Source: Terriglobia bacterium (GTDB lineage Bacteria; Acidobacteriota; Terriglobia; Terriglobales; Acidobacteriaceae). Taken from it: a stretch of 61,163 bases of DNA. The notes under the pieces are model-generated. The model did not search any database and was not told where the DNA came from. It saw only the letters and a list, made by a program, of their open reading frames with translations. Positions 38,237-40,679 of this stretch are shown in pieces (position 1 is the first letter of the stretch; each line of letters opens with the position of its first letter). The translations under genes were made by a program, and so were the position numbers. Location: assembly GCA_021325035.1 (NCBI GenBank), contig JAJPHW010000058.1:1-61163 (forward strand), given 5' to 3'.

Positions 38237-38995
38237 CTACCCCATCAACATGCCGCCGTTCACGTTCAACACGTGACCCGTAATGTAAGAGGACTCGTCG
38301 GAGGCAAGAAATGCCACGGCGCTGGCAATTTCTTCGGGCGTGCCGACACGGCCGAGTGGGATCATCTTGAGCGCGTCCTGCTTAAGGGCGTCGCCCAGAT
38401 TGGCGGTCATCGCTGTTTCGATAAATCCCGGTGCCACTGCATTGCAAGTGATATTGCGTGAGGCCAACTCGCGAGCCATCGCCATGGTCAGGCCGATCAA
38501 TCCAGCTTTGGAGGCGGCGTAATTCGCCTGCCCCGCCTGGCCCATCTGCCCGAAGACTGAGGTGATGTTGATGATGCGTCCCCAACGCTGCCTGAGCATG
38601 GAACCAATGACCTGCTGCGTGCAAAGATGCGCGGACGTCAGGTTCGTGTTGATGACCGCGTCCCAGTCTGCCCGCTTCATGCGCATCGCGAGCTGATCGC
38701 GGGTGATGCCGGCGTTGTTCACCAAAATATCTACTTTGCCGAATTGGCTGATGGCCGCTTTGAAAGCGGTTTTGATCTGTTCTTCTTCGGCAACATCCAG
38801 GACAAACTTGGCGGCTTGGCCGCCTGCGACCGTGATTTGCTGGACCAACTCTTCCAGCTTGGATTCATTGCGGGCCGCGACAGCGACAGCGGCTCCATCG
38901 CGCGCCAAACGCAAAGCACAGGCATGCCCGATTCCCTGCGAGGCCCCGGTGACAAAAGCTACACGGCCTGAAAGTGATTTTGCTTCTGAAGTCAT
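38237..38995 (-). CDS. fabG: 3-oxoacyl-ACP reductase-like short-chain dehydrogenase
   Basis: Protein of 252 residues, the standard FabG length. Cofactor motif TGASQGIGHACALRLA, NNAGI motif, catalytic Ser (INITSVFGQMG) and YxxxK (NYAASKAGL), and the C-terminal YITGHVLNVNGGMLMG typical of FabG. It reduces 3-oxoacyl-ACP with NADPH in fatty-acid elongation. No other fab genes are adjacent, so a different short-chain substrate is possible. Confidence 0.88.
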   Translation of the reverse strand: MTSEAKSLSGRVAFVTGASQGIGHACALRLARDGAAVAVAARNESKLEELVQQITVAGGQAAKFVLDVAEEEQIKTAFKAAISQFGKVDILVNNAGITRDQLAMRMKRADWDAVINTNLTSAHLCTQQVIGSMLRQRWGRIINITSVFGQMGQAGQANYAASKAGLIGLTMAMARELASRNITCNAVAPGFIETAMTANLGDALKQDALKMIPLGRVGTPEEIASAVAFLASDESSYITGHVLNVNGGMLMG

Positions 38996-39101: not shown

Positions 39102-40679
39102 ATGGCTGAAGTGCGTGAAGTGTCCAATTCCAACGGGAACCATCCCTCCGCAAAACCAGCGGTGGAAGTCTTTGCCGTCTATGGCGTCGAGCCGGAAGTT
39201 CAGGCATACGCGATGGCGAAATATTCGCGCTCGGCACTCTCGATGAAAGAGTCGTTGAAAGAAATCAGCTCGCAGAAAGCCGAGAAATTTCTCAACACTT
39301 TTTATTTTCAGTATGGTCACCGGTCCATTGCCGACCTGGCGCACATCGCTATGGCCGTCGAGAAGCTTTCCATCTTGGCCGCAATTGCGGTAGCTGACGA
39401 AACCCGCTGGGATGGCCAGGAACGCTCGACCCGCTATCAGGATTTCAAGAAGAGCGGGTATTACACGCCCGAATTTGGCGGGGATACAGAGGCTCAGAAG
39501 CTCTATCGTGAAACGATTTCTGGATTATTCGCAGAATACGAAGCGCTTTCGGAAAAGATGTTTGTGTATCTGGCCAGCATCACTCCGAAGCCGGAGGAAA
39601 TGAAGCAGGACGCCTACGAGCGCACACTGCGGGCGCGGGCCTTTGATTTTTCGCGCTATCTGCTGCCTTTGTCGGCGAATACCTCCCTGGGGCAGATCGT
39701 CAATGCGCGAACTTTGGAAACGCAGATTGCGCGATTGCTTTCGCACACCCATAAAGAAGTCCGGCACCTCGGAGAGTTGCTCAAAGCGGCAGCACTCGAT
39801 CCCGCATACAACGTGAATCGCGAGTCGCTGACGAAGTTGGTGGGAGAGATTCGCGCGATTTCGCCGGAATTGGCCGTGCGAGCAGAACAGGAATTGCTTC
39901 GCGAAGTCCGGGTTGCACCAACCCTGGTGAAATATGCCGACCCGAATGGCTATGAAATCGAAACGCGGCGCGAGTTGCGGCAGGCAGCTGCCGAATTCAT
40001 GAAAAACGCGGCGATAGATTCTGCTCCGGCTGTTGATCTGCTTGATCAAGACGATTTGGAAGTTGAACTTGCGACGACGTTGATCTATCAGCATTCGCAT
40101 TATTCCTATCGGCAAATTCGAGAGACGATGCGCGCAGCAGGAGACGCGCTCCGCCGCGAAATTATTGATCTCGGCCTGCGCCATCGCGGCAAACATGACG
40201 AACTGTTGCGAGCGTTTCATGCGGGCCAGCAATTCCGCTTCGACATCCTCATGGATATTGGCGGCTTCCGCGACATGCACCGTCATCGCCGCTGCGTACA
40301 GATTGAGCAGGAATTCACTACCAAGCACGGCTATGACGTTCCCGAAGAGCTCGAAGCCGCTGGTGCGCGTACAAATTATGAAAGCACGATGCAGCGCACC
40401 GCGAATGCCGTAGAGCGATTGGGGAAATCTGGGGGTGTTGAAGCCGAAGAAGAGGCGCATTACGCCATTCCCCTTGGCTTTCGCAAGAGAACGCTCTTCA
40501 AAATGGACTTCGCCGAGGCGCTTTACATCTCCGAACTACGCAGCGGGCCCGCGGGGCACTTTTCTTATCGCAATGTTGCGTATGCGATGTATGAGGCTGT
40601 GGCAAAGAAATATCCTGTGATCGCGAAGTATTTCCGGGTGACGGATGTGAGAGAGCCAGTAGATTTGCTAAAGAGGTAG
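39102..40679 (+). CDS. FAD-dependent thymidylate synthase-like protein with two ThyX-type halves
   Basis: Protein of 525 residues from ATG 39102. The longer frame from 38703 overlaps fabG and adds unrelated residues, so it is rejected. It is about twice the usual ThyX length (roughly 220-270). The first half carries YGHRSIADLAHIAMAVEKL (71-89) and QERSTRY (106-112), resembling the second part of the ThyX signature RHRxxSxNExSxRY. The second half carries HSHYSYRQIRETM and DMHRHRRCVQIEQEF with RHR at 394-396, resembling the first part. This suggests a duplicated fold with one composite active site. Family precedent is flavin-dependent dTMP synthesis; activity cannot be assumed. Confidence 0.82.
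   Translation: MAEVREVSNSNGNHPSAKPAVEVFAVYGVEPEVQAYAMAKYSRSALSMKESLKEISSQKAEKFLNTFYFQYGHRSIADLAHIAMAVEKLSILAAIAVADETRWDGQERSTRYQDFKKSGYYTPEFGGDTEAQKLYRETISGLFAEYEALSEKMFVYLASITPKPEEMKQDAYERTLRARAFDFSRYLLPLSANTSLGQIVNARTLETQIARLLSHTHKEVRHLGELLKAAALDPAYNVNRESLTKLVGEIRAISPELAVRAEQELLREVRVAPTLVKYADPNGYEIETRRELRQAAAEFMKNAAIDSAPAVDLLDQDDLEVELATTLIYQHSHYSYRQIRETMRAAGDALRREIIDLGLRHRGKHDELLRAFHAGQQFRFDILMDIGGFRDMHRHRRCVQIEQEFTTKHGYDVPEELEAAGARTNYESTMQRTANAVERLGKSGGVEAEEEAHYAIPLGFRKRTLFKMDFAEALYISELRSGPAGHFSYRNVAYAMYEAVAKKYPVIAKYFRVTDVREPVDLLKR

Follow-up and report, generated by a model that had tools for sequence, protein, structure and literature searches.

The stretch of DNA analyzed here (the window; 61,163 nucleotides) carries a gene for a double-length ThyX protein (Table 1). 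Reading the start region, we found GAGG about 6 bases 5' of the ATG at 39102. Upstream of this ATG the frame is still open, with a GTG at 38703, and double-length relatives begin to align at about residue 1 to 20 of the window protein. Promoter and terminator scans gave nothing that clearly exceeded shuffles.

Table 1. Positions in the window of the double-length ThyX gene, its halves, and its putative active-site residues. A, B, and C are the subunit roles in ThyX; counts refer to double-length proteins.
Feature	Positions	Strand	Description
Double-length ThyX gene	39102..40679	+	525 aa; translation and PF02511 profile matches
Half 1	39102..39887	+	Residues 1-262; PF02511, 62.9 bits; predicted-fold match Z 12.3, 206 residues aligned
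Half 2	39888..40676	+	Residues 263-525; PF02511, 52.6 bits; residues 282-525 modeled alone, Z 14.6, 192 residues aligned
His73-Arg74-Ser75 (HxS)	39318..39326	+	Ser75 aligns with the FAD-contacting Ser of the neighboring subunit (B role)
QERSTRY, residues 106-112	39417..39437	+	dUMP side (C role); Ser109 and Arg111 in 170/170
Asn201-Ala-Arg203	39702..39710	+	Arg203 lies close to the B-role arginine in the alignment; conservation weak
Asp391	40272..40274	+	Three residues before RHR, where canonical ThyX has Gln; D in 126 and Q in 44 of 170
Arg394-His395-Arg396 (RHR)	40281..40289	+	FAD side (A role); RHR in 170/179, RHN in 9/179
Arg480	40539..40541	+	A role; 170/170; aligns with Arg174 of T. maritima ThyX and Arg199 of M. 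tuberculosis ThyX
His486	40557..40559	+	GH where the canonical protein has AQ; strictly covaries with Asp391

Two Thy1 domains in one chain

We found that the whole 525-residue protein scores 113.2 bits against the Pfam Thy1 profile (PF02511; cut-off, 24.8). A six-frame search returned two separate PF02511 matches in one open frame, each above this cut-off (Table 1). The boundary between the halves (residues 262/263) was our choice. The NCBIfam ThyX equivalog model TIGR02170 gave 37.7 bits, and its curated cut-off of 87.9 was not reached. The ThyA profile (PF00303) had no match in the window protein. By these profile scores, the window protein is a member of the Thy1 superfamily that lies outside the TIGR02170 equivalog as defined. 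Since the score falls under the ThyX equivalog cut-off, genome surveys could label such organisms thymidylate synthase negative.

We modeled the protein with AlphaFold2 (50 sequences), both as a whole chain (pLDDT, 86.9; pTM, 0.85) and as residues 282 to 525 alone (pLDDT, 91.5; pTM, 0.83). Both halves matched ThyX crystal structures in these models, with the highest Z scores given in Table 1 (rmsd, 3.9 for half 1 and 4.4 for half 2), and unrelated chains in the same comparisons gave a Z of 2.6. When the whole model was searched with Foldseek, matches to one chain were modest (best E, 3.1e-4; TMt, 0.5 to 0.63). Among viral proteins, its best match was a thymidylate synthase of 491 residues from Microcystis phage LMM01 (TM, 0.74 over 512 columns). 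Because this predicted structure aligns over both halves of the window protein, the two predictions agree on the arrangement of the halves. A phmmer search of PDB sequences with the window protein found no true match, and the family profile found marginal matches only. In the predicted models, both halves have the ThyX fold. The profile matches and the predicted fold bear out the sequence-only reading that this is a double-length ThyX-like protein with two Thy1 domains in a single chain.

Thymidylate synthesis in the source genome and its phylum

DNA cannot be made without thymidylate, and ThyX, which people lack, is studied as a drug target. ThyA produces dihydrofolate and requires dihydrofolate reductase (DHFR); ThyX does not. 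The source genome (3.86 Mb, 98% complete) encodes a single Thy1 protein, and profile searches of it found no ThyA (PF00303), no DHFR, and no thymidine kinase (PF00265). A separate complete thymidylate synthase had been named as part of what would speak against a hybrid active site in the double-length protein. We found neither a second Thy1 protein nor ThyA in the genome and therefore rejected such a synthase elsewhere in it, and thymidine salvage through thymidine kinase was rejected on the lack of a PF00265 match. A thyA gene in the missing part of the genome is possible but unlikely, given the phylum-wide pattern described below. With no other Thy1 protein, ThyA, DHFR, or thymidine kinase found, the gene very probably encodes the working thymidylate synthase of the source cell.

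The genome also encodes thymidylate kinase and dCTP deaminase, and no PF00692 dUTPase was found in it. The supply of dUMP is not fully accounted for without a dUTPase; a bifunctional deaminase-dUTPase is possible.

We then counted these proteins in 199 Acidobacteriota genomes, which are related, so that the counts are not independent events. Thy1 was found in 146 genomes and full ThyA (>300 bits) in 44; no genome had both, and nine had neither. The double form is present in 102 of the 199, none of which has full ThyA. Sixty of these doubles were read as sequence, and 42 were counted from two Thy1 matches. The count started from 103 genomes with two Thy1 matches; taken out were G097 and G190, whose canonical ThyX carries a large intein-like insert, G125, whose ThyX is permuted, and G045, whose matches lie, by coordinates, on two contig ends. 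Three genomes with one listed match were put in (G026, and G039 and G098, in which the gene is cut at contig ends).

DHFR (>100 bits) was found in 43 of the 44 ThyA genomes, in 1 of the 102 genomes with doubles, and in 12 of the 44 other Thy1 genomes. The tally had been run on 100 doubles (1/100) and 46 single-ThyX genomes (12/46), and the figures for 102 and 44 were recounted by hand. The DHFR figures leave out weak matches (25 to 27 bits) in G051 and G063. The mutual exclusion of Thy1 and ThyA, together with the rarity of DHFR, indicates that the double behaves genetically like a working ThyX: it replaces ThyA, often without DHFR.

Six Thy1-less genomes (G037, G085, G113, G122, and G180, all of genus g40, and G187) have PF00303 matches of only 28 to 46 bits and no DHFR. 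These genomes are 93 to 99% complete.

Active-site residues in the two halves

As described in the available text of PMC6514825, ThyX of M. tuberculosis and H. pylori has four active sites, and three subunits form each of them. FAD is seated on the RHR of subunit A plus Ser71 and Arg190 of subunit B. For dUMP binding, subunit A contributes the leading Arg of RHR and the C-terminal Arg199, and subunit C contributes Arg87, Ser105, Arg107, and Tyr108 (the Tyr lid) (PMC6514825). In T. maritima ThyX, Ser88, Arg90, and Tyr91 are catalytically important, according to the available text of PMC8316439. We took the A, B, and C roles from PMC6514825, as far as its available text gives them, and assigned the positions in the window protein by alignment.

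The sequence-only reading placed QERSTRY at residues 106 to 112 and RHR at residues 394 to 396, and both stand exactly so in the translation of 39102-40679. We found that half 1 lacks RHR and that half 2, which has RHR and Arg480, lacks SxRY. The contiguous signature of canonical ThyX, RHR...SxRY within one domain, is absent, and the motif is divided between the halves. By alignment, the FAD- and dUMP-binding set is present across the polypeptide (RHR, Arg480, Ser109, Arg111, Tyr112, and Ser75), with Ser109, Arg111, and Tyr112 corresponding to Ser88, Arg90, and Tyr91 of T. maritima ThyX. The Arg87 position of the C set is Ile91 in the window protein, and Ile is also found there in 22 of 30 canonical singles of the phylum. 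On this alignment, the division between half 1 and half 2 equals the published split of residues between ThyX subunits.

Doubles were gathered from a phylum sample, a family sample, named genomes (80 loci), viral contigs, phage records, and plasmid records. The residue-column alignment consists of 170 doubles (162 distinct), the rows of which are related to each other. It includes 10 of the 36 viral-contig loci; the remainder were mostly near-copies or partial. Ser109, Arg111, Arg185, Arg394, His395, and Arg480 are invariant in this alignment. The column for Arg396 shows 170/170 as well, as an alignment effect, since seven of those rows are RHN. Tyr112 is conserved in 169 doubles and replaced by F in 1. 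Position 75 has S in 146 doubles and T in the other 24, and position 73 has H in 154 and D in the other 16. The Arg203 position is R in 132 of 170 doubles and 9 of 30 canonical singles. For comparison with singles, we used a table of 74 doubles and 30 canonical singles. L069, which has an insert, L081, and L094 were left out of it; L081 and L094, which the single-ThyX profile had missed, are included in the 170-row alignment.

A pattern search covered 179 doubles, namely, the 170 aligned and nine more phage or plasmid proteins. All 179 have xSxR[YF] in half 1, and all 179 have RHR or RHN in half 2. The reverse motifs are rare and lie off the motif sites: three rows carry RHR in half 1, and one carries [EQ]xSxR[YF] in half 2. 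When the pattern is loosened to SxR[YF], 13 of the 179 doubles have it somewhere in half 2; the aligned motif columns of that half lack the set. Among 12 aligned proteins from Acidobacteriota, Bacteroidota, Bacillota, Actinomycetota, and phages (17 to 49% identical to the row of phage Tunturi_5), few residues are invariant, and these include the half-1 Ser and Arg and the half-2 RH and Arg. Because the division is the same in every one of the 179 doubles, the divided motif is, by this comparison, not decay; recent gene decay is ruled out by the conserved architecture among relatives.

We also found that residues 391 and 486 covary. The pair is Asp/His in 126 of 170 doubles and Gln/Gln in the other 44, with no other combination, and all 30 canonical singles have Gln at each of the equivalent positions. 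Residue 391 adjoins RHR, and residue 486 follows the C-terminal Arg. By these residues, the Asp/His and Gln/Gln proteins are two subtypes of doubles, and the pair may tune the active site.

The Asp391/His486 pair could instead mark a changed reaction, such as hydroxymethylation or methylation of another nucleotide. In favor of this, Asp/His strictly replaces Gln/Gln as a pair in the larger subtype, and PolB, a UMP/dUMP methylase by the titles of 4p5a and 4p5b, has the same fold. However, a genome that lacks ThyA still needs a source of dTMP, and no candidate other than the double was found. Doubles of both subtypes also occur in the same phylum, and neither is accompanied by full ThyA in the genomes sampled. 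We consider a changed reaction quite unlikely.

A second alternative is that the double is a pseudo-enzyme, no longer catalytic and acting in regulation or as a structural protein, with dTMP made by some other, unfamiliar enzyme. It would account for a complete canonical motif being found in neither half and for the score under the ThyX equivalog cut-off. Yet the catalytic residues are among the best conserved in doubles, the source genome yielded no ThyA, DHFR, or thymidine kinase, and Thy1 and full ThyA occur together in 0 of 199 genomes. This makes loss of catalysis very improbable.

We give hardly any weight to the reading in which each half has its own complete site built with unfamiliar residues, so that two chains would have four working sites. 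Allowing a one-residue gap brings Arg212 of half 1 into line with Arg174, but the aligned motif columns hold no RHR in half 1 and no SxRY set in half 2. A sequencing or assembly artefact, or two genes joined through a lost stop codon, is refuted by the same architecture in 28 of 31 family-sample genomes (27 besides that of the window), in 80 named records, and in phages and plasmids, and its probability is negligible.

Proposed assembly, spread, and known relatives

We strongly favor the explanation that the window protein is a thymidylate synthase of the ThyX superfamily that arose by duplication and fusion of the ThyX subunit gene, after which the active-site residues would have been divided between the two halves. 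According to this model, two chains would form a pseudo-tetramer resembling the ThyX homotetramer. Half 2 would take the place of subunit A, with RHR (residues 394 to 396) and Arg480 holding FAD and one side of dUMP. One copy of half 1 would act as subunit C, with Ser109, Arg111, and Tyr112 over dUMP, and the other copy would act as subunit B, with Ser75 on FAD. A complete site would then consist of half 2 of one chain and half 1 from both chains. Because subunit A is served by two different neighbors in a 222 tetramer, no site could be completed from a single chain. Of the four sites, two would be complete and two dead, with one FAD per 525-residue chain. Ordinary ThyX chemistry would be expected, in which CH2-THF methylates dUMP, NADPH is the reductant, and THF rather than DHF is released. 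The release of THF rather than DHF would fit the absence of DHFR.

A fused pseudo-dimer with complementary losses and one hybrid site had been proposed from the sequence. It is supported by the two domains, by the predicted fold, and by the conserved division, which matches the published split. We infer that "one hybrid site" means one per chain and two per two-chain pseudo-tetramer.

The double form is widespread and not peculiar to the source genome, occurring in Acidobacteriota, phages, and plasmids. Jumbo phage Tunturi_5 of an acidobacterium encodes a double annotated as "thymidylate synthase" (XOB77493.1; 47% identical over 96% of the query), which sits near genes annotated as dCMP deaminase and dUTPase. 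More distant doubles are found in Microcystis and Vibrio phages and on large plasmids of Bacillus, Paenibacillus, Parabacteroides, Euzebya, and Miltoncostaea. Three scans of viral contigs returned no relative. In a tree of halves, the half-2 rows fall on one side of a branch with support of 91/92 (90/89 without long rows). The half-1 rows need two changes, and the test does not reject a single origin for them (p-AU, 0.489). The tree is compatible with one origin or two, and a fusion that happened once, long ago, is plausible. We see an even chance that the doubles form a large separate class of thymidylate synthase that probably goes back to a single ancient round of duplication, fusion, and division of labor and has spread among bacteria and phages. 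In this scenario, half of the ancestral sites would work, each assembled from both chains, and the two dead sites would be available for something else, such as allosteric nucleotide or folate binding.

Other arrangements of ThyX were seen among the genomes sampled. G125 (L262/L248) has a circularly permuted ThyX in a 471-residue frame, in which Thy1 profile positions 59 to 190 come before positions 8 to 79 and a THRMFSRNASSSR-like motif lies near the start. In L075 (G190) and L076 (G097), intein-like inserts of about 400 residues interrupt a canonical single ThyX gene shortly past KHR, by a few residues; these inserts carry a CLTGD...VVHN pattern. In L069 (G009), an 882-residue frame, the half-1 HxS site of a double ThyX is interrupted by an intein-like insert of about 375 residues.

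A major form of ThyX, carried by roughly half of the Acidobacteriota genomes sampled and by several phages, apparently divides one active site between fused domains. Nature here provides a test case for how an active site made by several subunits can be shared out, and for the number of the four sites that ThyX truly requires. Full-text searches of open-access literature, outside which most subscription journals lie, found no account of a divided active site. Domain duplication of ThyX is already in print (PMC3224940, available text); the split active site is what appears to be new. Valas and Bourne (2009) described a Chloroflexi ThyX with "a domain duplication" that had "not been characterized," and the duplicated protein is the only thymidylate synthase in most Chloroflexi (PMC3224940, available text). 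By that description, it resembles the window protein in having two ThyX domains per chain. The available text of the Chloroflexi account contains no sequence or residue analysis, unlike the work presented here (PMC3224940).

Canonical ThyX (T. maritima TM0449 and M. tuberculosis ThyX) shares with the window protein its Thy1 domains, its predicted fold, and its FAD and dUMP residue set. Like the double, it is the sole thymidylate synthase, with ThyA absent and DHFR mostly absent. In contrast, canonical ThyX has about 220 to 270 residues, compared with 525 in the window protein, and carries in one domain the residues that are divided here between two fused domains. It has four sites per assembly, whereas two are predicted for the double. 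Canonical ThyX has Gln before RHR, where the window protein, which also falls below the TIGR02170 cut-off, has Asp.

PHROG 36506, "thymidylate synthase" (491 positions, Microcystis phages), is also double-length, matches the window protein over residues 33 to 507, and has Ser and Arg in half 1 and RHR and Arg in half 2, as the window protein does; it is phage-borne and about 28% identical to the window protein. The Tunturi_5 double has motifs near-identical to those of the window protein but is a jumbo phage gene.
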